DNA of 64,000 bases from Pisolithus tinctorius. Its lineage: Eukaryota > Basidiomycota > Agaricomycetes > Boletales > Pisolithaceae. Shown piece after piece: positions 4,704 to 50,560 of this stretch (the first letter of the stretch is position 1; every line of letters begins with the position of its first letter). The notes under the pieces are model-generated. The model was not told the DNA's origin. It saw only the letters and a list, made by a program, of their open reading frames with translations, and made no database searches. A program made the position numbers and the translations under genes. The stretch is from the NCBI GenBank assembly GCA_024663395.1, contig JANFAH010000018.1, positions 310,001 through 374,000 on the forward strand, read 5' to 3'.

Positions 4704-7700
4704 ATGGATTCTGGTCCACCCAAGGACGCCTTTCATGACAGTGACAGCGAAGAAATACATGTGTATACCCCTCGAGACAAAGGAAAGCGAAGGGCGGATG
4801 GTGTGTAAATGTCAGACTGACCAGCGACCTCGTCATTGCTCACTGTTTCTTCCGTAGACTCTTTCTACAACAACGTGTCTGCTGGGAAACCTGGCAGTTC
4901 TGGTTCTGCAACCGATATGGGCGGTCACAACCGCCCTTCTCATACCTTCTCTATGGATCTGGATGCTCCAAGTGTGGATGAGAATGACTCCGAGTCGACC
5001 ATATCGATGGCCATCTCCGAGTCGTCCGCGTACAAGCGCCTCATGGCCGATGCCTCATCAAGTGATGAAGAATCGCTGTATGAGAGCTTGTACGAGTCAG
5101 CAGTTGATCAAGATGAAAAGTCGAAAGCAGCGACGGATGACGACGTGAGTAGATTCCCTTTATCCACCAGGCGACTATCAATAAGTTGATACGTAGATGG
5201 ACGTCGATGTTCCTCTTCATACACTTGACCACCTCGATCTGGCCTCCTCTGTCAAAGGATTGTACAGGATCCTTGATCTGATTACCGAACAAGGCAGCGG
5301 CGGGCTGGGTAATGATTTTGCTCCTGATAACCGACCCGGGCGCTTATGCTTCCCTCAGTCGACAAGATCATTATCTCTCAAAATTCATTGAAAGCTTTCA
5401 TCAATACTGTTTGTCCTGGCGCGTATGCGTCCCTGACGAAGGTTAATTTCAAGGCATTGGATCGGTATATTGTAAAACCCGTCGGCGTGTATGGAAGCAA
5501 AGAAGAGATCGTCCGATTCCTTTCAGAGCTTCAGGTTGTTGATGACGCTTTGTATGTTGTTTGCCCAATGCCAACTGCTGACCGTTCTTGACGATGCTTC
5601 TACCTTTGTTAGGGCTGCACAACTACTTGCAGACCCGAGTATTGCTGGACCAACGAAGCCCACCCTTCGATCAGGTCTCTACCTTCTTCGACCAACGGAA
5701 CCGTATGGTCAAACGGAACAAATCTTCGTCGTATACTGGCCTCAGGAAAACACTTGGGATGATTCTGCACCCTCCCAAGTCCGCCGAAATCGTGTGACCT
5801 TCATGAGGTTCGTTCACGTCGCACAAATGTTTCTTCGTATGCATGCTTATGATTCACAGGTACCTCACCAAGATGTGTGACCAAGTCGTTTCATTAATTT
5901 CTTCCGCGCACGCGCAGACTATTGTCTGGAATGACGGGGATGAGGACGATGACGAAGCCAGGGACGAAGATGATGAAGGAGATAGAATCATCAACTGCGT
6001 TGTGGACAGAACGACCGAGCAGGAAGAATCAGTGCAAGTACGAGAAGGCTTTAAGGTATGGGTTCTCATGCTCCTTTACGCCCCGAGGCTAAAAGGTTTG
6101 TCGCAAAGGTTCCATCTGGGTACATCACCTACGCGGACTCAGCCTCAGAAGCATCCGCGGAGCAATGCCCAACGAAACCATTTTTGCTCTTCGGGGAGAC
6201 TGCTCAAGGTTTCATGACCATACAGCACCAGCCGGCTAAACGCGTATCCGATTCTTTCAAGGCGCGATCCTTCACAACTCTTCAACTAGAAAATCAGCTG
6301 TAAGTCTCTGTTCGACTGTGTAATGGTGGCCTTGACGTCAACATCAATCGTCTTCAGCATGTCCGATCGTCTTAGCCTCAGTGAATCCCTGGATGATCAA
6401 GCATTAAGTATCCTTGTACGCAGCGGCCTGAAGAAACGTTTTCATGACGAATGTAACAAGTGGACACACGAATCCACTGCTGTTGGAGCCCGATGCAAGA
6501 GAATACAAACGGATGAATTGGAGAAAATGAGGGCTACTCTCAACAAAGAAGAAGAAAACTTAACTTTAGCAATCCACGAGGCCGTCGTGAACACAGCTTT
6601 GGACTTATATCCGTAAGTCATTCAAATCTGGTGCATTACTATATCTATTTATCGCCGGCTTACTGCAGCTTCCTCGAACGAGAATCATTTCCTTGTCCCG
6701 GAGCGCATCAAGCAGACACGCCAGGTGAGGGCCAGCACGGACAAGCATAAGAAGTATTATCTTATTATATCTCAGTGTCCTTCCGGGAAATCATTGAGCT
6801 TTATCCCAAAGCGCATGAAGTTTTTCAGCAGAACATCAAACCGGTCAGAAAGATCAGTAACCACAAGTTCAGAGACATTAAGGATCGACTATGCCTTTTT
6901 GTTGAGTTTACTTCTCGTGCTGGCGAAATCAATAAAAATAAGCGTCACGAGATTGCGAAAGCTGCTGCGAAGGAAGGGTTTACAGCCGCCAAAAGTGCCC
7001 TGCGGGATGCTTTCAGAACCTCACGCGTCGTCCGGCTCTATGATCACTATGTTGCGCCGGCTTTGTCTGGTGCAAAAGAAGACCCGAAGGCCGCTTTCGC
7101 CGAACGTATTCTCTGGGAAGCTCGCGACAAAGCGAACGATATCTCGGACAGCCGGTTCTTGAAGGATATTGTCAAAGCAGAAGTTATCCAGGAGGATTCG
7201 GAGTTGACAGCCCTGGTCCACGAAGCAAATAACAAGGTACAACCGTACTTGGGCGCTACGATACCCCATGTCGTGAAGAAACTTGTCGGGTTGATCAGAA
7301 ACACTCAGGAGGACACAATAAGAGAAGGGATCAAAGCCGCTACTGAAAGCCGAGAGGAACAAGAGAAGCGCCAGCTCAGATTGCAATTAATTCGTCATGT
7401 TAATGATTCAACGAGCCAAACCCAGCAACCGTAGGTCCTGAAGCTTTCGAGTGGCCACTCGTTGACCATCCACCAGACACACCCTCATCATCCAATCGGT
7501 TGAAGAGAATAAATCGTACTACTCGTATTATACTTCCCCATCACAATGCAAAGTCTCGGGTGCGCGAGAGACCCAAGAGGATCCCATGACGTGTTTTACT
7601 ATTCATACCATGAGCCTCACGGAGCAGGACAAACATGACGTACAGCTGGACGCATCCATCATTCCTTCTCCCCGTTTTCGTTTCGAGCATAAATTCCGGT

Positions 7701-10700
7701 TAACTCAGGGGTACACAGTTTTGTACGTATCCTTCCAACTCCTCAAAGTGCTATGTAGGACTTACCCATTGCTAGGCGTGCGCAGTTGCTTGAAGGAGAG
7801 AAGTTACTGCTGATTGTCACAGACCGTGTTGGCAATTTGACGGTTTATCTCGATCACCTAACCGCTATCGATGCAGCGATTGCACGAGGGCGCGGAAAAA
7901 TTTTGAACCGCGAGAAGATCGGTCAGGATTTCGTCCTTGCGTTCGATGAGTCCAAGCGGATGTTGAGCATCGTCTCTTCTGACAAGGTGTGTAGGCTGTG
8001 GATTTCGGGTTCTACGGTATGTCTCACAACGCGATCGTTGACCTGTAGCTATTACTACACATCTTTGTGTACGACGACACGCGAGGCTTCCAAGCCTTAG
8101 GAAGTTCTATTAACTTGAACACATGGTACAATGAAGGGACATCCATCCGTCATGCGTGCTTTGTCAGTGGCAGTGAAGAGCTCCTGCTCGTAGATTCTCA
8201 GGCCCTGGCTAGGATATACTCCCTAGTTACGATGCAGTTTCGGTCAGTTGAATACGGTACTCTGCGAACCGGCGCTCATTAATCTGACAGACCCGCGACA
8301 CTGAACCTCCACCACATCCCGTCGAGCATCCATTCCGCTCCAGACGGGTCGTGTGTACTAGTTTCTCATGAGCATGGAACTGGCCACACGTTGACTGCGT
8401 ATCACTGGGATTCCTTTGGATCGACAGAGGGCATCGAGCTTAACGTGCCCAGCCTTCCAGTTGGCGAGCCGTTCGTGGTCACATCACTAGTCTCCAAGTC
8501 GGCCGTTCACCTTTTGTGGCTTGACTTTTCTGCTCGGCGATGTCAATCTTATGCGTTGGACATCACCCGTCGGGTGACCGAGTTCATGTTCCGAGAGAAG
8601 ATTGGTCGCAATGGGTCTAAACGAACGGAAAATACGACAGCGCATAATTGCCTGGTAGACTGTCACTCGGAAGTCTGGATTCGTTTCCCAGTCCTCGCTG
8701 CGGTGCAACGGGAGACTATATCCTCTGCCAGTCTTCGGAGCCAGAGAAGTCTGGTCTTCGTTACTGACCGTGACTTCCAAATGTTTCCACAACATTTTTC
8801 CAATATGATCTACAATTTCGAGCGCACGAGTAAGAAGCCTGCTGGTGATGTCCTCAAATCTGTCAAGGTGTCAGCTGCCGCCTTTTCCGTCTTCGTGCAA
8901 GAGTTATGTGGCACCACTCCGTGGAACGTCTCGCAATATAGGGCAGGCGAATGGATTGTCGATTTCCTGTGTTTGATCCCAATTCACATCGCGTTGACAA
9001 AAGAAAATCGCTTTATCCCCCTCAAAGATGGTGTATATTCCCCGGAGTTGGAAAGATCACTTTTAGGTGCCGAGGTGAATCGCATCGTAGACAGTATCTC
9101 CTTCGGGTGGTACGAGTCTCTCTTTCAGTCCTATATGGCAACCAAGGTAATGCTTATTTGATGTTCCCGGATCTTGCTTATGACCTGACAGCCCGTTCGA
9201 GTGGTGTCGTCCATGGGAGAACAATCTGTTGGGAAGAGTTATGCTCTTAATCATCTCGTGGACACATCATTTGCGGGATCTGCGATGCGTACGACTGAGG
9301 GTGTCTGGATGTCTGTCACGCCAACAGAGAAGGAGCTCATTGTAGCTCTAGATTTTGAAGGTTCGTCAACCGTCGTTCGTTCGTTGTATTTTTTTCAGTA
9401 CCCATCCCTTTTTTCAGGTGTCCACAGTATCGAACGGTCGGCTCAAGAAGATACACTACTCGTCCTTTTTAACACTGCAATCTCAAATCTAGTAAGCTTG
9501 TTCCTATAGCGAAGAAAACATAGACGAGAATGACCTGTCTCTAGGTCCTTTTCCGCAATAACTTCGCACTCAGTCGTGATATCGCAGGGTTATTCCAGTC
9601 CTTCCAGTCTAGTGCTACTGTTCTGGATCCTGCAGCAAATCCGTCACTATTCCAATCGACTCTGGTTATCATTATCAAGGTGCGCCGCGCTTGCGACAAT
9701 TGGACTTTAATATCTGATAACCAATTCCAGGATGTTGTTGAGGCGGATAGGTCGGAGATAGCTAGAGAGTTGGTTCATATTATAGCTGTGGGGATTCCCT
9801 CAACTAACGAGCTGCCAGATTCACTCTGAAGTTCCAACGAATTGTGCAAGACGAACAAGAAGCAAACTTCATCACTCGACTTCATGCAGGAAAATTGGCG
9901 ATCATTCCTTGGTGCGCATTGCAAGTGGAGTTGTAGGAGATGTAGTCTAATTCCTTACAGGCCCGTCATTGAATCTAAGGAATTCTACAAACTATTCCCA
10001 ACGCTAAAGCGGCGCTTGGATCAGCAAGTCGTAACGCACCATGCCGCTGGCGAATTCCTTCACAAGGTGAAAACGTTGATGGCGAAGCTCAAGGTTAGTA
10101 TAACTACTTGCAGGATGACTGCTTTTAACATTACTGCATCAGGCCAATGATTGGGGGGCAATGTCGCGTGCGTTTGTATGTACTGGTGACTTAGTACCAC
10201 TCACTTTTTTCCAGAGACTATGGCATCTCATCGGGCGCAGCTCCTGTCATCGTTACTTGCGAATGCATTAGCTTTTGGCTTCCAGGAAGTCCATCCTGAG
10301 CGAGAGCCGCTGAAGGTAGCTCCTATCCACCTCTGTCTTGAAAGTTCTAATTGTCCTTAGAACCTTGACACTGATATGCCTGTGGAGCTGCCTGACACTG
10401 AATCATATTTATTCCTCGCAGTTGGAATGGCCCCGCAGTCAGAAGTTCGTGAGCAAGCACTAACCACGCTTCAGAGTTCCTGGGAACGTTATCACGGCCG
10501 TCAACACACTCCTGATTCAGAGTGGGTGGAGGCCCTGTCCCAATACCTCGAGGGCATCGTTAATCTACGAATCGACCATGTACAAGAATGGCTTTCACAG
10601 AATTTGGTGCGTTTCCAGACGGGCCACGCAAGCATCGAGGAACTTCGACGGAACTTCGACGGTGCCACTGTCGATCTGAAGAGCAATGTACAGCTCTGCA

Positions 10701-13653
10701 AGTTACAATGCGCGAATTGCCAATTGTTGTGCATTCAGAGTCGCCTCCATGACGGCCCTCATTCTTGTCAAACCAATCACCTTTGCATTCACCAATGCGA
10801 TTTTTGTCTAGAGACTAATGGCGAGCTCCGAGAGTGTGGCATGGCCGCTGGTCATGCAGGGAAACATATGTAAGCATTTACTCCTACCTAATTATCGCAG
10901 TTTCGCATATCCAGTGCGTACACAGATGTGTCGTCACAGCTCACCTGTGTGGCAAACCCTGCAAGTTCGAAGGCAGGTCCGGATGTCTTCACGAGTGCAT
11001 TAAAGTAGGGTATTCTCGTCATACCACTTGTAGCTTTCAGTTCAGATATCGTAGGTTTTTGATCATGACGACGAACATTTGTGCGCTGCCTCAGTGCACG
11101 CTTGCGGAAAGGCGAGTCCCTTGCTTTGGTGACATGAACATGTATTGATTTCCCTTGTAACAGCCGTGTAGTTTATCTGGTCTTAAACTTGCTGACGGAT
11201 CGGATTATTCGTGCCCCGGTTTTTGTCGAATCCCAAGGTGAGTCTACCAGGGTCCCTGGATTCCGGAGGCTGATAGATCATCAGTGACATTGATCATTTT
11301 CGTCACGAATGTGAAGCTCGTCTCTGCTCGGTCACTTGTCAGCTCTGCAAGCGGCTATGTTTTGATCAAGATCACATGCATGGTTTAGAAGATGGTGCAG
11401 TTCATCTTTGCGGGTGGGTTGATACAATTACATCTGTCAACGATCGGCACAAGGCTAATATTACCCTGCCGTTGAACAGGCAAGAGCATCTCTGTACAGC
11501 TATGTGTTCTGCCCAGGGCATATGTGAGATTGAAACGGCACCGCATTCGATCGAAGCAACTTTTACGGGTAAGCACGAAACTTTTCAATATACGAAGGTA
11601 GGCAACTTAACACGTTTGAGCCGATGCTTTTCTAATACGCCCACGACCTACCTATACCAGTACTCCCAAGGTGAGCTGCATAGTGGTGCCGAAATAAACT
11701 CAGCTTACGTGGTGTAGTGGCAAAGCGACTGAAATGTGTCAAACTAGTTCCACCTGGTGCAACGCAACACAGGGGTTCCCATAATCACAGTCTCGATAAG
11801 AAAATAATTCACTTTTGCGAAGCCAGGTAAGTCGTGATGCTCATCCTATCGCCCCTATCTCCAGTCATTCAACCCGGTCCAATCTGACAGGTGCGAAAAT
11901 TGCGGGTATTTCTGTACATTACCGCTTGGTATGATCAGTTTACATTTTCCTTCTTTGCCACGCCCTGATAGGCAATGTTTAGGCCACCCTCAACAAGAGC
12001 ATGAAACACGTCACGGCTCTATGTCCCGCACACGATGGACTGTAGATGGACCTGATGATGCAGCAGTACTCGAAATTGAAGGGAGGAGATTCTCTACAAA
12101 TGACGAGGGGGCTCCAATGATGTGCAATCTTGTGTGCCAGGCAATGGGTCGTCACGCGCATATTGACTACTGTCGCTCTGACGAGGAAGCAGCCTGCATT
12201 GGCAATGATGAGATTCAGCACATCATGAAGCGCCTGCGACCTAACCCTGACCGCCCGAAGGACTACGTTACCCATAACTTGATCTGGAAAAGGAGTGGTG
12301 AGCATGTACATTGGACGCGCACTGCATGTGTTGATGCAATGCTTTCAAGGTTTCAAAGATCCGTACTCGAAAGAAGAGCAAGCAGTATTTGCAAAATGGT
12401 AGGTTGCTCAGGTAGTCGAGTAACACCGAATGTTGATTTTCTGCAGTGATGCTATGTGCAGTGGTAAGCTAAGTGGTTTCAATCTTAAGATTACTCTCGT
12501 GACCCAGGATACAGGCCCAGAACACGCCGGCGATGCTGGGAATCTTGCTCAACCCTCCTATTGCACGCTACCGATGTTCCATCCACCAGCGGATGTGAAT
12601 GCAGGTGCACCAGCTGTGGGATACATATCCAACGATGGTCATCATTTTGCTTGTCGTAACCCTGTCGTTATGCAGCAGGCGTTCCACGTGTAGGTATTTA
12701 CATAGTTTTCGCGTGACCCAAGCTGACCCCCTCGCCAGGATATTTGTTGCGGACCGGTGAAAATGATACTCCCGACTTAACATGACCCTCACGCTGACTC
12801 CCTTTTCAGGTCTGGCTCCATGTCGTACGATGATCGACGACCATTGCAAAATACTCCTGCTTCAGCCAGAATTTGTGCTCGTTCAAACAACAGAATTGGC
12901 GCGGTTCTCTCCTCATTGTTTAGTTTCTGGTCTGCCCGTGCAGCAGCCATCGGATCAAGTGCCAATGCGGCTCGCAGAGACGCCTATAGTGTTATACTGT
13001 TCCATCATGAGACAGTTACTGTCATTGAAAACGACTTGACAAGCAATCCAGACCAACTGCTAGATATGCTCTTGCCTCATCAGGCGGATGGTGGGACCAA
13101 CTACACAGCAGCAGTTATTGCTGCTCAAGGTGTCATGGAGCGAAATTGGAGCACTGAGAGGTAATAGAACAGTCTTCGGCCCAGCTCCAACTAACCTATG
13201 AACTTGTCGCTTCTCAGGTCTCCTGTCATTATCTTCCTTTCGGATGGAGAGTGCAGCATTACAGACCAAACTATGCAAGATTTATGCCGGTCATCCGTTC
13301 GGCTTGGGTACGCGCCCACATTTTCCAAGCACTTTCTTCTTATCGTTTCTGATTACACCTTGCAGAAAGGCCGTGTCCTTCCATGCAGTATCATTTGGCC
13401 CAGATGCGTCCTCGACATACCTACGCAGAATGGCAGAAATCGCACTAGACGCCCAGAACAACGCTCCGAGGGATCCACTCGCGCCGGCTGCTGCAACAGT
13501 CAATTCGTCATACAATCAAGCCCTGGATTCGGTAGATAGTTTCGTGTTTGCGGAGTACTTTTTGCTGACGACCCTTACTAGGTTCAACTTGCAGAGACCT
13601 TCCTTGGAATTGCGGAGTCGCTGAGGAAGCCCAGAGGGGCATTAATGCATTAA
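4704..13653 (+). CDS. Gene A: giant GB1/VLIG-like GTPase with Cys/His-rich region and C-terminal vWA domain
   Basis: The ATG at 4704 (MDSGPPKDAF) is aligned by paralogue C, and the TAA is at 13651-13653. I estimate about 2,100-2,300 residues over several dozen exons with short GT-AG introns. Order: acidic Ser-rich N-terminus with SDEESLYES (4704-5142); conserved N-terminal domain (5190-5870); helical, charged region (6355-7434); beta-propeller-like region (7590-8700); GTPase domain (9190-9800) with P-loop GEQSVGKS at 9216-9239, G3-like DFEG and a possible G4 VIIIKD; helical part with NDWGAMS (9835-10620); Cys/His-rich NFX1-like region (CQLLCIQSR, HLCGKPCKF, HLC near 11409; 10680-11480) and CENCGYFC near 11890; vWA domain (12735-13640) with MIDAS ADRSGSM, GGTN and FLSDGE. 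All junctions I checked keep frame, so I take it as functional. The G domain resembles guanylate-binding/RHD3-type GTPases, which hydrolyse GTP and oligomerise on membranes; the in vivo role is unknown. Confidence 0.85.
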
Positions 13654-14538: not shown

Positions 14539-17500
14539 ATGGACGATTCTTCATTCAGGCCAACAAATCTATTTAGTAACACTGACGACGGACAATCTCC
14601 CGATCAAGCACTTCTGGACGAAGAAAATGGAAGAGCTGATGGTATTTTGACCTTGATCGAGGGGCCCTCCGTCGCTGATCTGCCACCTGTAGACATCGAA
14701 TTGGACGGAGACTGGTCTGATTCCAGCACAGAAACCGATGCATCGCCGCTCGAGCACCATATCCAGATACCTTCTAGTTCTCAGTTGCAAACGCAGACGC
14801 CTACAGCAGCGAGTAACAGTCAGAGTAATCCGAGTGTCCCGGACGATGTGGATGATGCTGCTAGTGAAGAGAGTTTGTACGAGTCAGTGCACTCGGATAC
14901 TCCTAACTTAGCGAAGGATCATGAGGTGTGTCAACTTTCGCTGTTGTCGTATTGCCATTGAGGTGTTCACCAGATGAGTACTGATGAACCCTCTGTCGAC
15001 CCATTCGATAATAAAGATCTGGCACAATCCATTCCAGGATTATATAGGATCCTTGATCTAGTTACCGAACAGGGAAGCGGTGGGCTCGGTATGGTCTTTC
15101 CCGCCATGACGGGGCTTACGCTTACGCTTTCTCAAGTGGATAAGATCATTATATCTCAAAACTCGCTTAAAACATTCATCAATACTATTAGTCCAGGCGC
15201 CTACCTGTCTATGACGAAGGTCAATTTCAAAATGTTGGACCAATCCACCATCAAACCTGTAGGCATTTACGGCAGTAAGGAAGAGATAGTCCGTTTCCTC
15301 TTGAGGCTTCATGCCGTCGATGATACTATGTAAGTTGTACCTGATCTTGGTTGTGCCAGCGGCATTTCATGACAGATTCCACTTTGTAGAGCTACTCACC
15401 TACTATCTGAATCGAGTACTACCGAAGCCCATCCGACACTTCGCTCGGGGTTGTACATCCTTCGTTCAAGTGCTGCTGAGCCTAACAGATCCGACCAAAT
15501 GTATGTCATCTACTGGCCAGAGCAAAATACGTGGAACGACTCAGCACTATCGCAAGTTCGCCGCAATCGGGTGGCATTTATGAGGTAGTCATACGTTGTT
15601 TACGTACCCTCAAGTACTTGACATTTTGTGCAGGTACCTCACACGAATGTGTGATCAGATTGTCGCATTGGTGTCGTCAGAACACGCTCGAAGAATGGTG
15701 TGGAGCGAGATCGGTGACAATGGCGATGACGATGACGATTGTGTCGACGAGGATGACGAAAATGACCGAATCATCAGGTGTGTCGTGCAAAGGACAACCG
15801 AGCAGGAAGAGTCGGTGCAAGTTCGTGAAGGATTCAAGGTGAATTTCGCGTTTTGAGTCAAGCCCACTCGAGTTAAGTTTTATAGATAACTTCGGAACAT
15901 ATATCCCAGACAGAGCCACCCGAGTGTGGAGAGCAGTGCTCCGTAAAACCCTTTCTGCTTTTGGGAGAGGCGGCGCAGGGCTTTGTGACTGTGCAACATC
16001 ATCCCCCTAAACGTGTTATCGAAACGCTCAAGGGTCGCTCCTTCAATGCCATTCAATTGGAAGACTACTTGTACGTGTATTTACCATACCTCAGCATCTC
16101 ACCACATCTACTTGTCCGCCATGCAGAATATCCGATAGCTTAGATATCAGTGAAACCCTCGATGACAAAGGGCTTCGGATACTGGTTGATGTTGGCCTTC
16201 GAAAGCGCTGTCCTCAGGAATGTGTGAACTGGGAACACCAGTCTACAGCAATTCAGGAACGTTATAAGAAGATCTTCGATGATAGGTTCCGGAAAGCTAA
16301 AGACGAGTTGGTTAAAGTAACCGAAAGCCTGAATAGCGCTGCCTACAATGCTGTTATTGATGATGTGGTGGCATTATACCCGTAAGTAATGACGTTTGTC
16401 TTAGGGCGGCATTATGGTTCATTCTTACGTTGTTAAGGTTCATCGACAAGCAAGCATTCCAGTATACAGGCTTCGGTACTGAGGATCCACCAGGTATGGT
16501 TCATTGGTATACATTCCATATTTCAGAAAATGTTCATTATGTGTTTGTAGTGGTTTCATTTTCGCAAATCACCGATACCTATCCGGATGCAAGCAGGGAT
16601 TTTCAGCGCAACATTCAAGATTGCCATGTAATTTCGGATCGCGAGTTCCGGGCTACGAAGGATCGGTTGTGCCTTCTTGTAGAGTTGGCATCCCGAACAA
16701 AAGGTCTAGACAGTGGCGTGCGGGACCCAATCTTGCGTGCAACCTTCATTGGTGGATTTCGAGAGGCAGAGAAAGTGGCTAAATCTTTGTCTATCGGTTC
16801 AGCAAGCAAACTCAAGATGATCCTTGACTACTGTGACAAGTTGATGAACAGCGGTTTGGCCCCGCAGACCAACACTCATTCTATAGATAGTGTCCTCAAA
16901 GAAGCCCACGAGGCGGCGCTAAAGGTCACAGATAGTGAGTTCTTTCGGATCGTCGCGAAGAAAAAGAAAGTCCAGGAGAGGGAACAGTTAGCGGAACTTG
17001 TTGAAAAAGCAAGACAGAAAGCGAAGTCATACTTTGAATACACCATCCCCCGTGTCGTCATGAAAATTGTTTCGTCAATCAAAGCGATCCAGGAGGTAGG
17101 CTGCCATGCGAAAATCAAGGCCGAGTGCTCTAGCCAAGAGGATCAAGAGCGATACAAGCATAGATTACAATTGATCCAGCACGTCAATAACTCGTCCGCT
17201 CAAGTACAGTGCAGGTGAGGCCTGAATTTTAATCCATTCTTTGACATCGTCAAACTCTTATAGGCACACTTTGCGAATTGATTCCGTTGAAGAAGAAAAG
17301 AAGGCTTGGGCGATTCCTAAAACATACAAGCTCTGGGGCCTGCGAGAATCCCAGGAAGATCCAGTGACGTGTTACACGGTCCATCCCATGAATGTGACGG
17401 AGGAGGACAAACACAACCTGCAATTAGATCCCTCCAGTATTCCTTCACCTCGCTTCAGGTTTCAGCATCCATTCGAGTTACCTCTTGGGCATACAATCTT

Positions 17501-20500
17501 GTAGGCCCTACGCTTTGGATTTTCTGCTCTTCCTGATCTGATGCATGGTCTGTAGACGTGCGCAACTTCTTGAAAGAGAGAGGCTGCTCTTAATTGTCGC
17601 GGACCGGGTTGGGAACATATTTGTGTATCTTGAAACTCTCACCGCCATGCACGGTGCCATACAGCGTGGGCACTGTAAGGCCCTGAAACGGGAAAAGATT
17701 GGCCAGGATTTCCATATCGCCTTCGACGAGTCAAAGCGGATGTTGGCTGTTGTTTCGTCAGACAAGGTTTGCAGTTCTCATTCCATTCACAATGCCGAAA
17801 CAAGGATGATCGATGAAACCATGTATCGCAGCTTCTATTGCATGTATTTGTATACGATGACGTGCGAGGATTTCAAGCCCAGGGGAGCGCCATTAACTTG
17901 GGTCCTTGGTATGGCGAAGGAGTGCGCATCCGTCACGCCTGCTTTATATGTGGTAGCGAAGAAATACTACTGGTGGACTCTCAAGCCCAGGCTAGAGTGT
18001 TCTCATTGGTAACCATGCAATTCCGGTGAGTCAAGCCTCATACCCGTTGAGTTTTATCCTGCATACCAAATGTCAATAGACCTGCAGTTCTTAGCCTACC
18101 TCAAGTCCCAACCGGCGTGCATTGCACACCCGATGGGTCCTGCGTATTGGTTCTTCAACCCCATGAGTCTGAGCTAGCAGTAACTGCTTACCACTGGAGT
18201 TCTTTCGGTTCCACGGAGGGCATATCACTCAACATTCCCGATCTTCCTGTTGGCGAACCCCTCGTAGTCACCTCGCTTATCAAACGCACAGCGGTTCATT
18301 TGCTGAAGCTCGATTTATCCACTTGCTGCTGCCAGTCGTATGCACTCGACATTACTCGACGGCATACCGAATTCATGTTCCGTGAGCGGGTCAACCGCAA
18401 TTCTACATCAGCGAGAGCGCACGAAACCGCTCATAACTGCCTCATCGACTGTCACTCAGAGGTGTGGACTCGCTTTCCTGTATGCGCAGCAGTGCCACGA
18501 GAGACTATATCCTCTGCCAGTCTCAGAGGCCAGAAAAGCCTCGTGTTTGTCACGGATCGTAGCTTTGACATGTTCGCTCCTCATTTCTCTCAGATGATTC
18601 ACTCTTTCGAACGCACGGCAAGGAAACCTACTGGAAATGCCCTCAAATCGGTGAAGGTGTCCGCTGCCTCATTCGACGTCTTTGCACAGGAGTTATGCGA
18701 TGGTGCTACATGGAACGTCTCACAGTATCGGGCGGGCGAATGGATCGTTGATTTCTTGTGCTTGATTCCGATCCACATTGCGGTGACCAAGGACAATCGC
18801 TTCATCCCTCTAAAAGACGGTGTATATTCACCAAGCTTGGAGAGGGAATTACTAGGAGCAGGCATTAACCGCATCGTAGACAATATTTCTTTCGGATGGT
18901 ACGAGTCGCTTTTTCAGTCTTACATGGCAACGAAGGTAGCTTCCTTGTCTCATACAACGTTTCTAACTAACAAAGACTAGCCTGTCAGAGTGGTGTCGTC
19001 CATGGGAGAACAATCTGTTGGTAAGAGTTATGCTCTGAACCACCTCGTGGATACTTCATTTGCTGGCTCCGCAATGCGTACGACGGAGGGCGTTTGGATG
19101 TCTGTCACCCCGACAGAGAAAGAGCTAATCGTAGCTCTGGACTTCGAAGGTTTGTCAATTCAAATCACGTCCGCTCGCAATTGTGCAGATTGTTTTCGTT
19201 TAGGTGTTCATAGTATCGAACGGTCAACGCAAGAAGACACGCTACTTGTATTATTCAACACTGCTATCTCAAATTTAGTGAGCGTATTGCTACGAAAATG
19301 GGAAGATAGCTAACACCTCTGCAGGTCTTGTTTCGTAACAACTTTGCACTCAGTCGCGATATTACAGGATTGTTCCAATCCTTCCAGTCTAGCGCTACTG
19401 TTCTAGATCCGGCAGAAAACCCTTCGTTATTCCAGTCAACTTTAGTAATCATCATCAAGGTATGCGGTCCGGTCAAGTGGACATGTCAAAAACTGAAATT
19501 CATTCTTAGGATGTCGTTGAGGCGGACAAAGTAGAAATAGGCAGAGAGTAAGTCAGCTCTATGCAAGCCTTCCCTTGATTGGTTCATCTATTGAATGAAA
19601 AGGTTCTCTCTGAAGTTCGAGAAGATTGTTCAGGACGAACAAGAGGCGAACTTCATCACTCGTCTGCATGCAGGTCGATTAAACATCATTCCTTGGTGCG
19701 CCTGTACTGGGACCATGTGGCTGGCGCATACTCATATCTCGGCAGGCCTGTCATTGAATCTAAAGAATTCTATAAGCTATTCACTAAGTTGAAAAGATGT
19801 CTGGATCAACAACCAGTTACGCACCCCGCGGCAGGCGAATTCCTCCACAAGATGAAAACGCTGATGGCGAAACTCAAGGTACGCATTCAGATACCAGTCT
19901 TCATTTCGTTGTTAAAATGGTATTAGGCCAATGATTGGGGAGCGATGTCTCGTATGTCCTGCCCTTGGTGCCCGTGTGAAACTCTCATAAGCTCTTCACA
20001 GAAACCATGGCATCCCATCGAGCCCAGCTTTTGCTGTCATTGCTTCCGAATGCATTGATATATGGTCTGCAAGAGGTCGCTCCTGAGCCAGAGCCTCTGA
20101 AGGTAACTAATCTATATGCGACACCTGGAGCGTCTAATTAAGCAGCCATTACAGATCATCGACGCTGATACTCCTATCCAATTTCCGGATACACAGTCGA
20201 GACTGTTCCTTGCAGTCAGAGGGTTTTCACAATCAGAGACTCGTGAGCAAGTACTTACGGTCTTGCGCAATTCCTGGGATCGGAACGAAATGCGTCAGCA
20301 CCTTTCGGATCCTGAATGGGCAGATGGTCTTTCCCAATATCTTGAACAGATCGTCAACTTGCGTATCGACCATGTGCGTGAATGGCTGACACAAAACCTG
20401 TCCCGTTTCCAGACGGGACATGCTAGCATCGAGGAGTTACGAAGAACATTTGAGAATGCTTCAGTTGATCTGAGGAGCAACGTTCAACTTTGCAGATTGC

Positions 20501-23500: not shown

Positions 23501-23555
23501 GTCATTGCGGAAGCCGAGAGGGTCGTTGATGCAACTGAATAATCGCCGTACTTGA
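14539..23555 (+). CDS. Gene B: second-subtype giant GB1/VLIG-like GTPase / Cys-His / vWA protein
   Basis: Start ATG at 14539 (MDDSSFRPTNLF); TGA at 23553-23555 after RKPRGSLMQLNNRRT. It is collinear with A but clearly diverged, with a different acidic N-terminus (SEESLYES retained near 14860-14885) and no A-type TATTTAAAT box. Landmarks: N-terminal domain 14974-15840; helical region 16165-17218; propeller-like region 17345-18500; P-loop GEQSVGKS 19006-19029 followed by TEGVWMS and DFEG; possible G4 VIIIK/D split by an intron; helical NDWGAMS region near 19927; Cys/His-rich region 20480-21340 (CQLLCIQSR, HLCGKPCKF, HLCAAL, CQLCKRLC); second zinc-like block near 21705; vWA domain 22575-23550 with ADR/SGSM, GGTN and FLSDGE. 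The introns I checked restore frame, so the gene looks intact. The predicted biochemical role is the same as for A; the subtype split suggests non-identical roles. Confidence 0.83.
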
Positions 23556-34564: not shown

Positions 34565-34618
34565 GGTGCTGTGCAAAAAAGTGGGGTTGAAACCTTGATT
34601 CATCCCCCACTCAACCCC

Positions 34619-34977: not shown

Positions 34978-35003
34978 CAGGCGAGTAGGGCGAGGCCACC
35001 ATT

Positions 35004-35323: not shown

Positions 35324-35335
35324 CCCTCCCAACCC
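35324..35335 (-). other. Putative polypurine tract
   Basis: On the coding strand GGGTTGGGAGGG lies immediately upstream of the 3' LTR, where plus-strand DNA synthesis of LTR elements is primed. Position and composition are the only evidence. Confidence 0.55.
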
Positions 35336-35470
35336 ATAAAAAAGGGCAACGGGGCGAGGGTGAGCGAGATCAGTGTGTGAGTACTCGTCTTCATCAACCA
35401 GTCTTCCACCTTCAACTTCTATCCGACCAGCCTTCTCAACTTCTCTTTGTCCTCATCAACCTCCACCGAC

Positions 35471-40315: not shown

Positions 40316-40339
40316 GCGCTATGGCACGTTCAAAAAAAG

Positions 40340-40654
40340 TGGAACTCACCACTGGGGGTGAGCACACTCAGTACGGATCACAACGACAACAGAACGTGGA
40401 CAGGCGTGTGGATTTAGACAATCAAGCGTATACGCTGATACAGGATGATCGAGAGAGAGAGAGAAAAAGAGGAGAAAGAAGGAACATGACTCCGCATACA
40501 GGCAGCACCAGTATATATACCCCAGAGTCCAAACAGCACAACACAGGAGGGATCCGCATGGGACGGTCCAGACGGTGCGATAGGAGGTGTGATAGTGTGA
40601 CGCGATAGTGTGGGCGGGCGTGAGTGGTGCGTGAGTAGTAAGCGTATGCTTACA
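40340..40654 (-). repeat. 5' LTR of the chromovirus (right copy)
   Basis: 315 bp, TG...CA in coding orientation (begins TGTAAGCATACG read on the minus strand), nearly identical to the left LTR. It is followed on the plus strand by the GCTCC target duplication. Confidence 0.95.
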
Positions 40655-40659
40655 GCTCC
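40655..40659. repeat. Target-site duplication, right copy (GCTCC)
   Basis: Identical to 35004-35008 and adjacent to the LTR end. The empty site would read ...ACCATTGCTCCGCCTACAA... across the join. Confidence 0.9.
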
Positions 40660-41625: not shown

Positions 41626-44600
41626 TATGGACGGTTCATTCATGCCACCAGAACTATTTAGCAATGTTGGCGCCGAACGAATTTCGGTTCAAGGAACTGC
41701 AGACACGTACAAAGGAAAGGGAAGAGTTGATGGTATTATTAAACTTGGTCCAGGGTTTGCAGGTCGCTGACTTCCCTCTAGAAATCGAATCGGATGGAGA
41801 CTGGTCTGATTCCAGCATGGAAATCGATAAATCTCCGCTCAACCACATACCTTCTGCTGAACTGGATAACAAGGCCCCTCGCTTTTCAGGTGATTGTGGC
41901 CCTCAATGGCAAGCACCAGCACCTACAGCAGTGGGTGCGAATAAGAGTATCCCGGGCGATGCGGAAGGTGTCCCTAGTCGAGAATGTTTGTACCAGTCGT
42001 TGCACCCGGATAGTCCAACTACTTCAGCGAGGGATCATGAGGTGTGTTAACCGTCTCTCTTACCGTATAGTCCACCAGATGGGTAACGACGACTAGTCTG
42101 TCGACCAATTTGACAATCGAGATTTGGCGCGATCCATTGCAGGTTTGTATAGGATCCTCGATATAGTAAATGAACAGGGCAGCGGTGGGCTTGGTATGAT
42201 TTCGTCCGCAATGACGAGGCTTGCGCTCATGCCTTCTGAAGTGGATAAGATCATTATTTCTCAAAACTCACTAAAAACATTCATCAATACTATTAGTCCA
42301 GGTGCCTATGCATCTATGACGAAGGTCAATTTCAAAATGTTGGACCAATCCACCATCAAACCTGTAGGCATTTACGGCAGTAAGGAGGAGATAGTCCGTT
42401 TCCTCTTGAGACTCCGCGTTGTCGATGATACTATGCAAGTTGTACTTGATCTTGGTTGTGCCGGTGGCACCTCACGACAGATTCCATTTTGTAGAGCTGC
42501 TCTCTTGTTGTCTGAACCGAGTACTACGGAAGCCCATCCGACGCTTCGCTCGGGGTTGTATATTCTTCGTTCAAGCACTGCAAAGCCTAACGAATGCGAG
42601 CAAATATATGTCATCTACTGGCCTGAGCAAAATACATGGGACGACTCAGTACAAGTTCGCCGCAATAGGGTAGCGTTTATGAGGTCGCCACACGTCCTTC
42701 TGTATCCCATGGCCCCTGACATTTTTGCAGGTACCTCACGCGAATGTGTGATCAGATTGTCGCATTGGTGTCTTCAGAACACGCTCGAAAAATGGTGTGG
42801 AATGATGTCGGTGGAGATCACCAGGATGAGGACGGTGGAATCGATGGAGATGACGGAGGTGACCGAATCATCAGGTGTGTCGTGCAAAAGACAACGGAGC
42901 AGGAAGAGTCGGTGCAAATTCGTGAGGGATTCAAGGTGATTGTCATGTTTTTTCAGTTAAGCCACACTGCGTTAAAGTTTCTTAGGTAACTTCGGAATAT
43001 ATATCTCAAGCGGAGCCATCCGAATGTGGAGAGCAGTGCTCTGTAAAGCCCTCTCTACTTTTGGGAGAGACAGCGCAGGGTACTCTGACTGTGCAACATC
43101 GTCCGTCTAAACTCGTCACTGAACTTTTCAGGCCTCGTTCCATCAGTGACATGCAATTAAAGAGCTACTTGTACGTGTATTTACTATACCTAAGCATCTC
43201 ACCTTACGTGCTTGTCTGCCCCGCAGGACGTCTGACAGCTTAGCCATCAGTGAATCCCTCGATGACCAAGGGCTTGAGATACTGGTTCATGTTGGCCTTG
43301 GAAAACACTTTCCTCAGGAATGTGCCAACTGGAAACACCAGTCTGCAGCCATCCAAGAGCGCTATAAGGAGATCCTTGATAACAGAATCCGGAACGCTGA
43401 AGACGAGTTGGCTAAAGCAGCTGAGAGCGTGACCAACGCCATACGCAATGCTGTTATTGACGATGTGGTGGCGTTGTACCCGTGAGTAATGGTGTTTATC
43501 TTAGAGCAGCAGCAGCATTTATTCTTGCTTTGTTAAGCTTCATTGACAAGCAAACATTCCAGTATACAGGCTCGGGTAATGAGGGTCCACCAGGTATGGT
43601 TCATATGTGTACGTTTCCACATTTTGGAAAATGTTCATTATTCGTGTGTAGCAGTCTCGTTCTCGCAAATCGTAGACATTTATCCAAAGCAGGCGAGGTT
43701 TTTCGGCTCAACACTCAGGCTTGCCACGTGATTTCGGATCCCAAGTTCAGGGATATAAAGGACCGATTGTGCCTTCTTGTGGGGTTTATGTCCCGAAAAA
43801 AGATGTAGAGACAGCATGCTCAAACCGATCGAGGATGCAATCGTCGCTGGTGGTTTTCAGGAGGCAGAGAGAATGACTAAAGCTTCGTCCGACAGCGCCC
43901 GAGGCATGCTCGCCTTCTGTCGTGACGTCTGGGAAAGAGTCAAGAATAGCGTTACTACCCCCACGAACCGACACTCGCTCCATAGATAGTGTCCTCAAAG
44001 AAGCGCACGAGGCAGCTTTGAAGATTACAGATAGCAAGTTCTTTCGAATCGCCGCGAAGAAAAAGCAATTCCAGGACAGACAACAGTTAGCGGAACTCGT
44101 TGAAAATGCAAGACAGAAGCGAAGTCGTACTTGGAACACACCGTCCCTGGTGTCATCACGAAAGTTATTTTGTCAATCAAAGAGATTCAGGAAGAAGACT
44201 GCCATGCGAAAATCACGGCCGAGTGCTCTTACCAAGAAGGCCAGGAGCGAGACGAGTATAAATTACAGTTGATTCAACACATCAACAACTCGTCCACTCA
44301 AGTACATCGCAGGTAAGGCCAGAATTGCAATCCAACCTCAGTCGCCATTAATCTCTTATAGATACACTCTCCGAATTGACTCCGTTGAAGAAGAAAAGAA
44401 GAGTTGGGGAGGTCCAGGACATTCAAGCTCTGGGGTCTGCGAGAATCCGAGGAAGATCCAGTGACGTGCTACACGGTTCATCCCATGAACGTGACGGAGG
44501 AAGATAAACACAACCTGCAATTGGACCCCTCCAGTATCCCTTCGCCTCGCTTTCAGTTTCAACACCAGTTCGAGTTACCTCCAGGGCATACTATCTTGTA

Positions 44601-47600
44601 GGCCGCACGCCCTGGATTTCCTGTTCTGTCAGGACTGATGCATAATCTGTAGACGTGCACAACTTCTTGAAGGAGAGAGGACTGCTCTTAGTTGTTGCGG
44701 ACCGGGTTGGAGCATATTCGTGTATCTCGAGACTCTCGATGCCATATTCGGTGTCATACAACGCAAGGGCCGTAAACTCCTCCTGAAGCGGGAGAAGATT
44801 GGCCAAGATGTCCACCTCGCCTTCGACGAGTCAAGGCGGATGCTGGGCGTTGTTTCGTCAGACAAGGTTTGTGGTTTTCGTTCCATTCACAGTGTACAAG
44901 CAAGGATGATCGACGAAACCATGTATCACAGCGTCTATTGCATGTATTTGTATACGATGACGTGCGAGGATTTCAAGCCCAAGGAAGCGCGATTAAATTG
45001 AGGCAATGGTATACGAAGGAGTACGCATTCGTCATGCCTGTTTTATATGTGGCAGTGAGGAAATACTGCTGGTGGATTCTCAAGCCAGGCCAGAGTATTC
45101 TCATTGGTAACCATGCAATTCAGGTGAGCAAAACCTCATAACCGAGTTTTGTCATCCGTACTGAATTTCAACAGACCTGCTGTTCTTCACCTACCTCAAG
45201 TCCCAACCGGCGTGCATTGCACACCCGATGGGTCCTGCGTATTGGTTATTCAACCCCATGAGTCTGGGCTAGCAATAACTGCTTACCATTTGAGTTCTTT
45301 CGGTTCAACGGAGGGCATACCACTCAACATCCCTGATCTTCCTGTTGGTGAACCCTCGTAGTCACTTCGCTTGTCAAACGCACAGCGGTTCATTTACTAA
45401 AGCTCGATTTATCCTCTCGCTGCTGCCAGTCGTATGCGCTCGACATTACTCGACGGCATACCGAATTCGTGTTCCGTGATCAGGTCAACCGCAATTCCAT
45501 CAGAGAAAGCACACGAAACCGCTCGTAACTGCCTCATAGGCTGTCACTCGGAGGTGTGGACTCGCTTTCCCGTATGTGCAGCAGTGCAGCGAGAGACTAT
45601 ATCCTCGGCCAGTCTCAGAAGCCAGAAAAGTCTCATGTTTGTCACTGATCGTGACTTCGACATGTTTGCTCCCTATTTCTCTCAGATGATTCACTCTTTC
45701 GAACGCACGGCAAGGAAACCTACTGGAAATGCCCTCAAATCGGTGAAGGTGTCAGCTGCCTCATTCGACGTCTTTGCACAGGAGTTATGCGATGGAGCCA
45801 CATGGAACGTCTCAGTATCGGGCGGGCGAATGGATCGTTGATTTCTTGTGTTGATTCCGATCCACATTGCCGTGACCAAGGACAACGCTTCATCCCTCTA
45901 AAAGACGGTGTATATTCGCCAAGGTGGAGAGAGATTTACTGGGAGCGGACATTAACCGCATCGTAGACAACATTTCTTTCGGATGGTACGAATCGCTCTT
46001 CAGTCTTATATGGCAACGAAGGTAGCGTCCTTGTCTCCTACAATGTTTCTAACTAACAAAGACCAGCCTGTCAGAGTGGTGTCGTCCATGGGAGAACAAT
46101 CTGTTGGAAAGTTATGCTCTGAACCACCTCGTGGATACTTCATTTGCTGGCTCCGCATGCGGACGACGGAAGGCGTTTGGATGTCAGTCACCCCGACAGA
46201 GAAAGAGCTAATCGTAGCTCTGGACTTCGAAGGTTTGTCGAATTATGTCCGCCTCCAATTGCAGATTTCGTTTAGGTGTTCATAGTATCGAACGGTCAGC
46301 GCAAGAAGACACGCTACTTGTGTTGTTCAACACTGCTATCTCAAATTTAGTGAGCATATCTGCGAAAATGGGAAATAAACACTCTGCAGGTCTTGTTCGT
46401 AACAATTTTGCACTCAGTCGCGATATTACGGGGTTGTTCCAATCCTTCCAGTCTAGCGCTACCGTTCTAGATCCAGCAGAAAACCCTTCGCTGTTTCAGT
46501 CAACTTTGGTAATCATCATCAAGGTATGCATTTGGTCAAGTGGACATGACAGAAGTTTAAATTCATTCTTAGGATGTCGTTGAAGCTGACAAGGCAGAAA
46601 TAGGCAGAGAGTAAGTCAGTCTATGCAAGCCTTCTATCGATTGATTGATTTATTGAATGAAAAGGTTCTCTCTGAGGTTCGGCAAGATTGTCCAGGAAGA
46701 ACAAGATGCGAACTTCATCAGTCGTCTGCATGCAGGTAGACTGACAATCATTCCTTGGTGCGCACAATCCGGAATATATAGCGGGCGCATGCTCATGTTC
46801 CGGCAGGCCTGTCATCGAATCCAACGAATTCTACAAGCTATTCACTAAGTTAAAGATGTTTGAATCAGCAACCAGTCACGCATCCCGCCGCAGCGAATTC
46901 CTACACAAGATGAAAGCGTTGATGGCGAAACTCAAGGTATGCATTCATATGCAGGTCGTCGTTTCTTTATTGAAATGGAATTAGGCCAATGATTGGGGAG
47001 CTATGTCTCGTATGTCCTGCCATTGATACTCGTGCGATACTCTCATAACCTCTCCACAGAAACCATGGCATCCCATCGAGCCCAGCTTTTGCTGTCAATG
47101 CTTCCGAATGCATTGATGTATGGCATGCAAGAAATCGATCTCGACCGGAACCTCTCAAGGTAACTAATCTGTTTGACGCTCTTCTGATTAAGTATTTCAT
47201 AGAATATTGACACTGATACTCCTATCAATTTCCCGATACTCAGTTACTCCTTGCTGCCGGAGGGTTTTCGCAACAGAACTCGCGAGCAAGTGCTTACGTC
47301 TTAGGCAATTCTGGGATCGAAATGCGCAGCACCTTTCGGACCTGAGTGGGCAGATGGTCTTTCCCATCTTGAACGGATCGTCGCTTGCGTATTGATCATG
47401 TGCGTGAATGGCTGACACAAAACCTGTCCCGTTTCCAGCCGGGACATGCTAGCATCGAGGAGCTACGAAGAACATTTGAGGATGCCACGGTTGATCTGAG
47501 GAGCAACGTCCAACTTTGTAAATTGCAATGCACCAATTGCCAACTACTGTGTGTCCAGAGTCGTTTCCACGATGGTCCACACAACTGCCGAACCGGTCAC

Positions 47601-50560
47601 GCCTGTATCCACCAATGTGATTTCTGCAAGGATGGCCCTGGTGAGAACAGAGCATGCTCTATGATGTGAGTGCTTCAAGGCAGATTGACTTCATGCTTAG
47701 CGTTTTCGCCGGCGGTAGCGGTGGCCACGCAGGAAAAGCACATGTAAGATGAGATTAACCTTTGTCCGTGGTTGGTGTCTTACCGTTCCCATATAGTTGC
47801 GTCGTGAATGCCCACCTGTGTGGAAGCCTTGCAAGTCCAACGGGCAAATTTGGTTGTCTCAACCAGTGGCACCAAAGTGGGTGCCCCTTACTGCAATTCA
47901 AGTCGATATTGATCTCCAGCAGGTCGCCGATCACCCGGACGAACACTTATGTGCTGCTCTAGTTCATGGATGTGGAGAGGTGAACGCTTCTTCTTCAGCC
48001 ATCTATTATTCCCGTTTCTCAGTCTGGACATATCACTTAGCCTTGTGGATTTGTCTGGGATTAAGCTCATTGACGGATCGACATATGCATGCCCTGGAAC
48101 CTGTCGCGTACCAAGGTAAGACAGCTTGAGGGACGAATGCGTAAGTTTATGCCCTTCCAGCGACGTCGATCATACGCGTCATCGTTGTGAAGCTCGCCTC
48201 TGCTCTATTACTTGTCAGCTATGCAAGCGGCTCTGTTCTCATCAAGATCATATGCACGGATTGGAGGAGGGAGCAACTCACCTCTGCGGGTTGGTCAACC
48301 GAAGTCCTGTATAAACTCACTCTGATCATAGTACAGCGAAGAGCATTTTTGCACTGACGAGTGCTCTGTCCCCGGGATATGTGAAAATCGAGACGGCTCC
48401 ATATTCCATCGAAGCTACTTTCACAGGCAGACATGAAGCCTTTCAATATACGAAGGTGACTGTATTATCTATTTCGCGTATGGAGGGACTAGCGCTGATG
48501 GACCGGTCCTCTAGTACTCTCAAGGTTCATTTGGTTTCTTTGCGAAATATTGTTACTCAGACATGCTACAGTTGCCAAAACGGCTCAAATGCGTCAAGTC
48601 AATCCCACCTGGGCAATTAAAGCATGCGGTCAACACAATCATAGTCTTGATAAGAAAGTTGTTCATTTCTGCCAAAATAAGTCGGTCACATTTTTTCGAA
48701 AAGTGTTGTAGATGACATGAGCGAGTCTCCAGGTGCGAGAACTGCGGTTACTTCTGCACACTACCGCTTGGTACGAGCGTCCATGTTGACATGCAGATCC
48801 ATTAACTAAACTGGATGACAAGGTCATCCTCAACAAGAACATGAGACACGCCACGGTTCCATGTCCAGAACGCGGTGGGTTGTTGATGAATCTGATGACG
48901 CTGCCGCCCTCGAAGTCGAAGGCCGAAAATTTTCCACTAATGACGAAGGTGCTCCCATGATGTGCAATCTTGTGTGTCAGGCGATAGGTCGCCACGTGCA
49001 TATCGATTACTGCCGCGCTGATGATCCAGCTGCCTGCGCTGGACGCGACCGAGATTCAGCACATTGCGAAGCGTCTACTACCCGATCCTGACCGTCCCAA
49101 GGATTACATGACTCACAGTCTATTCTGGAAAAAGAGCGGTATGTATAGACCCTTTAGTAATCGGGACGATGCACATCCCGAGCCTTTCGCCAGGTTTCAA
49201 AGATCCCTATTCGAAGGAAGAGCAAGCCAATTTCGCGAAATGGTAGGCTCCCTACGTTGTATTACATATATCAAGTCCAGTGACACAACTTGAACAGTGA
49301 TGCTATGTGTAGTGGTGTGTCTTTATCGGTTTTGACGCTTTGGGACATCCTTGTTGACCGTGAAACAGGCCGGGAACATGCCGGTGACGCTGGGACGCTT
49401 CCTCAACCGTCGTACTGTACGCTGGCAATGTTCCATCAACCCTCAGATGCGCGCGGGGCTGCACCTGCTATTGGATACATATCCAAAGATGGCCATCACT
49501 TTACTTGTCAAAATCCTGTTATAATGCAGCATGCATACCATGTGTACGCCCGAGATTCTGCTTAGCGTGCTGGGCTCAACTAATTGGCTTCTCAGCATAT
49601 TCGTTGCAGATCGGTAAGAGATAGCCACCAGTGTTTTGCCACCTATGCTAAATCCGCACAGGTCTAGCTCAATGTCCTTCAAAGATAAAAAGCCGTTGCC
49701 GAACACCCCAGCATCCGGAAGAATCTCTGCTTACTCAGACAACAGATTGGGGGCCGTGCTATCCTCCCTCTATGGCTTCTGGTCTGCTCGTGCAGCCGCG
49801 GTCGGATCTGGTGCTAGCGCTGCTCGCAGAGACGCATATAGCGTTTATTTTGTTCAATAGCAGAGTCGTCCCTGTGATTGAAAACGACTTCACGAGCGAT
49901 CCCGATCAGTTGCTTGATGCTATTTTGCCTTATGAGGCGGAAGGTGGAACCGACTTCACAGCAGCAATTACTAGTGCTGCGAGTGTCATGAAGAGAAACT
50001 GGAGCACAGAGAGGTGAATGCGCAACTTCGAGGTGTTTGTCGACTCGCTTATGGATTGTGACTTTTCAGATCTCCCGTCATCATCTTTCTTTCGGGACGG
50101 CGAGTGTCAGATTGCAGACCAGGCCATGCAAGACTTGTGCCGTACTTCTATCCGGCTTGGGTACTGGAATATGCTTCGTTGTCTGGTTTCGTCATTTTTG
50201 ATGGACACTTTACAGAAAAGCTGTCTCCTTTCATGCCGTTTCGTTCGGTCGAGATTCACAAAATGCCCTGAATTACCTATTCCTTGACCGACTGAATGTG
50301 TCCTGGAGTTCCCTGCGTAGATGGTGGAAGTTGCACGAGAAGCTCAGAGCAATGCACCCGGAGATCCACTCACGCCCGCCGCTGTTATAATCAACTCTTC
50401 GTACTCCAATGCGGAAGATACTGTACGCCATTTGCTTGTGGCTGATGTTCACATCTTATTAATCTACCTCAACCATAAATTAGGTCCACTTGCCGAGACA
50501 TTCCTTGGGATTGCGGAGTCATTGCGGAAGCCGAGAGGGTCACTGATGCAAACTAGATAA
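41626..50560 (+). pseudogene. Gene D: B-type giant GTPase / Cys-His / vWA gene with many frameshifts
   Basis: It is collinear with B from ATG 41626 (MDGSFMPPELFSN) to TAA 50558-50560 (RKPRGSLMQTR), but broken repeatedly relative to B: +1 near 41745; frame loss near 43800; -1 near 44117 (CAGAAAGCG to CAGAAGCG); -1 near 44700; -1 near 45354 (GAACCCCTC to GAACCCTC); -2 near 45815; -1 near 45850 and 45886; -2 near 46112, right after Gly-Lys of the P-loop; -1 near 46157; and many small losses at 47210-47400. Most are one- or two-base deletions. Domain remnants: N-terminal domain 42124-42939, propeller-like 44404-45480, GTPase 46070-46620, Cys/His 47495-48440, vWA 49600-50560 (ADR/SSSM, GGTD, FLSGRRV-type break near 50095). 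Splice sites are mostly kept, with a GC donor near 42435. Either a young pseudogene or a poorly polished part of the assembly. Confidence 0.8.

Follow-up and report, generated by a model that had tools for sequence, protein, structure and literature searches.

The GBP/VLIG-type giant GTPases are animal immune effectors, and the G4 motif of the GBPs is RD. VLIGs are not known to carry vWA or Cys/His regions, nor atlastin or Sey1 a vWA or zinc region. Endobacteria are present in many arbuscular mycorrhizal fungi. In human cells, Burkholderia is reported to be coated by GVIN1 (PMC11974893).

The window analyzed here is a stretch of 64,000 nucleotides from Pisolithus tinctorius. Self-BLAST revealed four homologous genes of about 9 kb each, named A to D, which occupy 4.7-50.6 kb and encode products of about 2,200-2,300 aa. 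The first-pass annotation had described four collinear copies packed with short introns across most of 46 kb. Their number, size and intron content were borne out by self-BLAST and by gene models with 34-45 predicted introns per gene (41, 42, 42 and 45 in one model set and 38, 34, 37 and 35 in the other, for A to D), the conserved introns having a mean length of 53 bases. However, the copies are not collinear, since C (about 34603-25684) is inverted, with A, B and D on the plus strand. The closest pairs are A with C and B with D. From the N to the C terminus, the products contain a conserved N-terminal half, a GB1/RHD3-class G domain, a Cys/His region and a vWA domain with a complete MIDAS. 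As had been reported, copies A, B and C have the motifs GEQSVGKS, TEGVWMS and DFEG, and their vWA carries DRS[GS]S, T and SDG. Searches of the window with ARAGORN, and with Rfam at gathering cut-offs, gave no matches. The features are:

4704..13653, plus strand: copy A, full gene, 38-41 predicted introns, 2,246-2,289 aa (comparative gene models; allele A2 on contig C25)
5257..7660, plus strand: copy A, N-terminal conserved module (GLYRILDL...) and faster-evolving part, where the haplotypes differ most
9192..9736, plus strand: copy A, G domain core, from G1 (GEQSVGKS) to G4 (IIIKDV)
10697..12663, plus strand: copy A, Cys/His (putative zinc) region, without Pfam match
12749..13638, plus strand: copy A, vWA domain (MIDAS DRSGS ... 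SDG)
14539..23555, plus strand: copy B, full gene (gene models; near NCBI record P0014, 2,301 aa)
18981..19515, plus strand: copy B, G domain core
20491..22491, plus strand: copy B, Cys/His region
22583..23522, plus strand: copy B, vWA domain (Pfam VWA_2 on near relative P0014)
25684..34603, minus strand: copy C, full gene in inverted orientation, with a single-base deletion in an exon relative to allele C2 (gene models; near NCBI record P0001)
25699..26580, minus strand: copy C, vWA domain (Pfam VWA_2 on near relative P0001)
26666..28623, minus strand: copy C, Cys/His region
29586..30127, minus strand: copy C, G domain core
41664..50572, plus strand: copy D, frame broken here by many single-base indels, allele D2 on contig C25 open (3' end approximate, aligned to B)
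46067..46578, plus strand: copy D, G domain core, disturbed by indels
47517..49517, plus strand: copy D, Cys/His region

The assignment of the G domain to the GB1/RHD3 class was upheld by Pfam GBP (25.5 bits against a cut-off of 21.1) and by structure comparison. All five mushroom proteins exceeded this cut-off (22.9-27.7 bits), as did two of the four full-length non-mushroom fungal members rescanned. The first-pass annotation would have given up its reading had the G domain matched no dynamin-superfamily model, and such a model was matched. In mushroom members the RHD3 model reached E values between about 1e-8 and 1e-7, and it stayed under its cut-off in all rescanned proteins. Bit scores for URGCP (PF25683) were 18-21 among the five mushroom proteins, 29-41 among another four full-length fungal members and at most 43 for shorter pieces. 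No rescanned protein reached its curated cut-off of 55, and an outright VLIG label was therefore dropped. PF25683.2 appears among the search service's precomputed labels for many relatives, and UniRef labels two of them (P0147 and P0289) 'VLIG-type G domain'. A first AlphaFold2 model (P0121) was set aside, with a mean pLDDT of 46. The modelled G domain has a large-GTPase fold and matches GBP1/2, atlastin and RNF112; its top Foldseek matches are RNF112, atlastin and Sey1. These model-based matches speak of fold, not of action.

The Cys/His region has 70 strongly conserved C/H positions. The NFX1 label given to it earlier is not supported: the zf-NF-X1 profile found nothing in five complete proteins at E <= 1 and nothing at E <= 10 on the isolated regions of two relatives (P0347 and P0252). 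A search of NCBIfam gave a single weak, irrelevant match. The N-terminal half is conserved and has no Pfam match. The vWA domain with its complete MIDAS is confirmed by Pfam VWA_2 (38-40 bits against a cut-off of 27 in five proteins) and by conservation of DxSxS...T...D. In the family alignment the DxSxS positions are kept in 67/67, 68/68 and 68/68 rows, SDG in 64-65 of 65, and the MIDAS T (T1034) in at least 90%. For this domain too, the matches to modelled structures indicate a fold and not an action.

Copy D had been taken for a decaying gene. Over the 8.0 kb aligned in the 43-51 kb bins, the two haplotypes differ by 56 single-base indels (7.0/kb). The rest of the aligned window, 37.2 kb, has 21 (0.6/kb), so that the D tract is about 12 times denser. 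An identical base adjoins 43 of the 56. Substitutions are not raised (13/kb in 43-51 kb against 22/kb elsewhere, or 18/kb once the two divergent copy A bins are set aside). Longer indels are likewise denser in these bins (17 vs 11). On contig C25, D2 has an open reading frame and none of the single-base indels of D. The D2 protein model is wrong in part of the Cys/His region, where the D2 DNA has no indel relative to B. Because the single-base indels are clustered, substitutions are not in excess and the allele is free of these indels, the broken frame of D is most likely, on sequence grounds, an assembly-consensus artefact and not biological decay. A genuine pseudogene, eroded by drift next to a recently inserted retrotransposon, would account for the 48 frame-shifting indel events relative to D2 within predicted exons and for the 5.6 kb LTR retrotransposon that lies between C and D in this haplotype and is missing from the other. 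However, the low substitution rate in the tract and the identical neighbouring bases make this improbable.

Further copies were found about 270 kb off on the same contig (E) and on contig C1 (F). No allele of F turned up; one of its flanks has a second match on C1, and the other is repetitive. Among relatives taken from the best 120 of 659, 811 and 629 matches, Glomeromycotina, Endogone, Basidiobolus, a chytrid and many Agaricomycetes share the domain architecture of A to D, often with several copies each. Arbuscular mycorrhizal fungi have many entries among the matches listed. The earlier description of a local family thus stands for the clustering of several copies, which are not single-copy genes, but not for local restriction, given E, F and the full-length relatives in distant fungal groups. 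The family appears, by its sequence distribution, to be old and widespread in fungi and not a local invention. A recent local burst was rejected, given the one-to-one pairing of D2, E2 and F with P. orientalis proteins and dS values of 0.49 (A–C) and 0.39 (B–D). Literature searches on the family and related topics listed no description of it, in agreement with the earlier claim, and the family is apparently undescribed.

We propose, with about an even chance of being right, that A to D belong as paralogues to an old and widespread fungal family of giant GTPases (about 2,200-2,500 aa), which assemble themselves into a scaffold, driven by GTP, in the manner of GBP/VLIG. The model builds on architecture, motif conservation, copy number and purifying selection, and on the G and vWA folds of the modelled structures, in which the helical extension behind the G domain resembles that of GBP. 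On GTP binding, the G domains would pair as in GBPs and atlastins, and a large scaffold or coat would then assemble. The Cys/His region, if it binds zinc as we infer, would stiffen this scaffold, the vWA would use its metal site to hold a partner protein, and the target, possibly an intracellular invader or membrane, may be chosen by the variable N-terminal part.

Selection and allele comparisons bear on what such a scaffold might serve. The dN/dS ratio is 0-0.44, below 1 in every region tested and highest in the N-terminal part, and the G domain is under strong purifying selection. Together with the wide spread, these sequence-based values would fit a conserved cellular role equally well as defence. 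A housekeeping GTPase that shapes membranes or forms scaffolds (atlastin/Sey1-like), its copies retained for dosage, is a possible reading that we hold tentatively. It agrees with one architecture from chytrid to mushrooms, with the constraint on the G domain and with the top Foldseek ranks of RNF112, atlastin and Sey1, but copies per species vary among the matches listed, and vWA and zinc regions are not known from atlastin and Sey1.

The alleles of copy A diverge most in the N-terminal region (dS 0.16, up to 0.30 in 600-column bins), with dS of 0.05-0.07 in other regions and up to 0.17 in single bins, as balancing selection could produce. Conversion from a sampled copy was rejected as the source, since in this block A and A2 are closer to each other than to C2, E2 or F. 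A and E also show mosaic tracts that suggest gene conversion, matched in 0 of 2,000 shuffles that assume even rates along the gene. Both observations would suit cell-autonomous defence or non-self recognition, where a fungal counterpart of animal GBP/VLIG/GVIN would assemble on bacteria or viruses inside the cell or on incompatible cytoplasm, its faster N-terminal part giving specificity. The G-domain class and giant size shared with VLIG/GVIN, the GVIN1 coat cited above and the clustered copies here and in Rhizophagus clarus, Diversispora and Geosiphon (judged by locus tags and contig sizes, among the matches listed) point the same way. This analogy is nevertheless somewhat doubtful: dN/dS never exceeds 1, the B and C alleles lack an N-terminal peak like that of A, and the peak of the E alleles (columns 7700-8300, 86-87% identity) is explained by conversion, because the E allele is A-like there. 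Turnover also seems slow, as the one-to-one pairs with P. orientalis imply. A broader version is unlikely: an ancient fungal surveillance by giant GTP-driven coat formers that would share ancestry with animal GBP/VLIG, have expanded in several lineages, arbuscular mycorrhizal fungi among them, select targets by the variable N-terminal part and use as regulators truncated paralogues that lack the vWA and have a changed G3 motif.

Should the scaffold proteins be confirmed as working GTPases, a very large, well-conserved protein family found in mushrooms and mycorrhizal fungi would gain a testable role, and it could be told whether the animal immune GBP/VLIG-type giant GTPases have a counterpart across fungi. 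Like GBP1/GBP2 (PF02263), the family has G1, G2, G3 and an [RK]D-type G4, its G domain and the helices behind it, as modelled, superpose on theirs, and Pfam GBP is above cut-off in five mushroom proteins. In contrast, it is about four times longer, with an extra Cys/His region and a vWA, about 15% identity, and KD instead of RD in G4. With VLIG/GVIN/URGCP (PF25683) it shares giant size, a single GB1-type G domain, several copies and an alignment to the URGCP model, although the fungal proteins fall below the family cut-off in all rescanned and have vWA and Cys/His regions. The atlastin/Sey1/RHD3/RNF112 group provides the best Foldseek matches for the G domain and the sub-threshold RHD3 scores, whereas the fungal family is far larger and has an added vWA. 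Finally, the vWA gives a generic fold match, at about 13% identity, to vWA proteins from TFIIH and from the proteasome (p44, Rpn10).

The window comes from contig C18 (310001–374000) of a 92.5 Mb assembly. Contig C25 carries the same locus (97.6% identical across stretches of 31.1 kb and 13.8 kb) and is read as the second haplotype of a dikaryon. Genes of the family are designated A to F, and their alleles on the other haplotype carry the suffix 2.

Features of the locus and further copies of the family (window positions unless a contig is named)
1451-2278, (-): ORF with a Zn(2)-Cys(6) cluster domain (Zn_clus)
4704..13653, (+): copy A
14539..23555, (+): copy B
25684..34603, (-): copy C
35009–40654: young LTR retrotransposon, Ty3/gypsy-type, with RT, RNase H, integrase and chromodomain
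41664..50572, (+): copy D
51375-53432: VIT/vWA-type gene adjoining D (by eye from translation)
within 57700-64000, (-): MFS transporter (by eye)
within 57700-64000, (+): EgtD-like methyltransferase (by eye)
within 57700-64000, (+): tryptophan synthase alpha (by eye)
contig C18, ~50 kb (loci L014/L015, ~45-54 kb): copy E; its allele lies on C25, and contig C77 has a 99.97% duplicate
contig C1: copy F

The first-pass annotation described the four copies as collinear, but self-BLAST places A, B and D on the forward strand and C on the reverse. Over aligned columns, identity is 81% for A–C, 82% for B–D and 62% for A–B. At synonymous sites, A–C (0.49) and B–D (0.39) have diverged to a similar degree, and A–B divergence approaches saturation. 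In the simplest history, an A–B pair would have been duplicated and C inverted afterwards. A partial copy related to the VIT/vWA gene follows B (24028-25043; 76% identical to the 51.4–52.5 kb stretch), and this gene seems to have been duplicated together with the B/D unit. A 20 kb stretch of C25 recurs on C77 (L018/L019) with 99.97% identity, probably through assembly redundancy.

Intron positions come from dynamic programming that weighed codon usage, splice signals and splice-site conservation across 11 sequences; 34 positions are common to at least 8 of the 11, with a mean length of 53 bases. The models of A–C predict products of 2,221–2,309 aa, and the NCBI records P0014 and P0001 are close to the B and C models, respectively; precise 5'/3' ends and individual exons are uncertain. 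In Pfam scans of C2, the vWA domain noticed earlier was confirmed by VWA_2 (38.7 bits, cut-off 27), and a vWA fold accompanies a GBP/atlastin-type fold in the predicted structure of the relative P0347 (68-row alignment, mean pLDDT 76; residues ~480–920 barely tested). The proposed GB1/RHD3 likeness stood for GBP (25.5 bits, cut-off 21.1) but not for RHD3 (32.4 bits, below 42.4), and URGCP was also below its cut-off (19.3 bits, 55). Solved structures matched by the G-domain profile include GBP2, GBP1, GBP5 and Sey1 (best E 3.6e-05). The Cys/His motifs had been called NFX1-like, a label which the same scan of C2 does not bear out, zf-NF-X1 giving no match. The 68 rows, hand-picked from 355 retrieved proteins, hold 72 Cys/His positions conserved at 90% or more, 70 of them from residue 482 onward.

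Against the other haplotype, D shows 56 single-base indels at 43.6–50.6 kb (7.0 per kb), compared with 0.6 per kb in the remaining 37 kb aligned, whereas substitutions number 13 per kb in this tract and 22 per kb elsewhere (rates hand-summed from tabulated counts). An identical base adjoins 43 of the 56. Relative to B, columns 4700–10900 contain 37 frame-changing events in D and one in D2, the latter near an intron of other models. The LTR element (LTRs differing at 1/315, target duplication GCTCC of 5 bases) is found in the window haplotype only, C25 having the empty site; its insertion is a polymorphism separate from the D indels. Relative to C2, a single base is deleted in an exon of copy C, and copy F has a 2-base exonic gap, where F may be damaged or may use an intron. 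The copy E model stops directly before the vWA domain in both haplotypes (L014/L015, L016/L017), with NFEG replacing DFEG. The P. orientalis protein P0067 has the same end point, with NFDG. Copy E may have been kept as a vWA-less form, or constraint on it may have relaxed.

At window 6–8 kb, 96–97 substitutions per kb (~10%) separate A from A2; the haplotypes differ by 1–39 per kb, 4% at the most, in the other full 1-kb bins. Each A allele is at least as close to its counterpart in this block as to C2, E2 or F, a pattern compatible with long-standing allele classes or with a donor outside the sample; balancing selection on the block (6000-8000) is possible. The B alleles differ by just 8 substitutions across the 5 kb at 14–19 kb, and we read 14000-19000 as recent shared ancestry. 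E and E2 are also divergent at columns 7700–8300, where the E allele is A-like. Tracts poor in third-position differences were compared with 2,000 shuffles, a test in which such tracts could be inflated if constraint varies from one part of the gene to another. Tracts with fewer differences than in any shuffle were found for A–E2 and A2–E2 (columns 4792–5764), A–E (7652–8344) and A–F (10269–10745). Shuffle counts were 9/2,000 for C2–E2, 55/2,000 for B–D2 and 84/2,000 for B2–D2, and the pairs A–C2 (265), A2–C2 (555) and C2–F (738) have no such tract.

A 60-row tree (quick search, LG+G4, SH-aLRT support; the tool warned of long branches among outgroups) groups B and D with P. thermaeus, P. marmoratus and P. 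orientalis proteins, and places A, C, E and F in a clade of 19 rows that are all from Pisolithus (support 100). D2, E2 and F are older than the split from P. orientalis, since each is paired with one protein of that species (support 100). Nei–Gojobori estimates of dN/dS for the G region, among A, B, C, D2 and F, run from 0.02 to 0.14. The N-terminal part of close paralogues gives 0.27–0.35, the regions of the E alleles give 0.19–0.44, and the Cys region of C and C2 gives 0.38, from 12 changes. None of the comparisons or regions tested exceeds 1.

The family had 659, 811 and 629 matches in three protein searches. Among the best 120 listed for each are many Agaricomycetes, Tilletiopsis, Glomeromycotina, Endogone, Jimgerdemannia, Basidiobolus and two chytrids, the group names beyond species labels being added as background. 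Eight members were read, from Rhizophagus, Chytriomyces, Basidiobolus, Phlyctochytrium, Endogone and Geosiphon; the GTPase–vWA order is present in the four of them scanned. P0327 (Chytriomyces), as annotated, stops ahead of the Cys/vWA part. With strict patterns, G1, DFEG, G4 and the vWA metal site (MIDAS) all occur in 96 of the 226 retrieved proteins longer than 1,200 aa; a further 73 miss the MIDAS pattern alone, some records being partial. Two Ceratobasidium proteins (P0146, P0155) are named 'Vacuolar protein sorting-associated protein 13A', yet match this G domain; they are probably misnamed.

Searches of an open-access library, part of them on adjacent subjects, turned up no article about a fungal VLIG/GBP–vWA family. 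A self-assembling scaffold is the likeliest mechanism, which may serve defence or housekeeping. The genes resemble those of animal GBP/VLIG/GVIN proteins in G-domain class, size and clusters. According to PMC11974893, GVIN1 forms an antimicrobial coat around Burkholderia; the fungal proteins may act in a comparable way.
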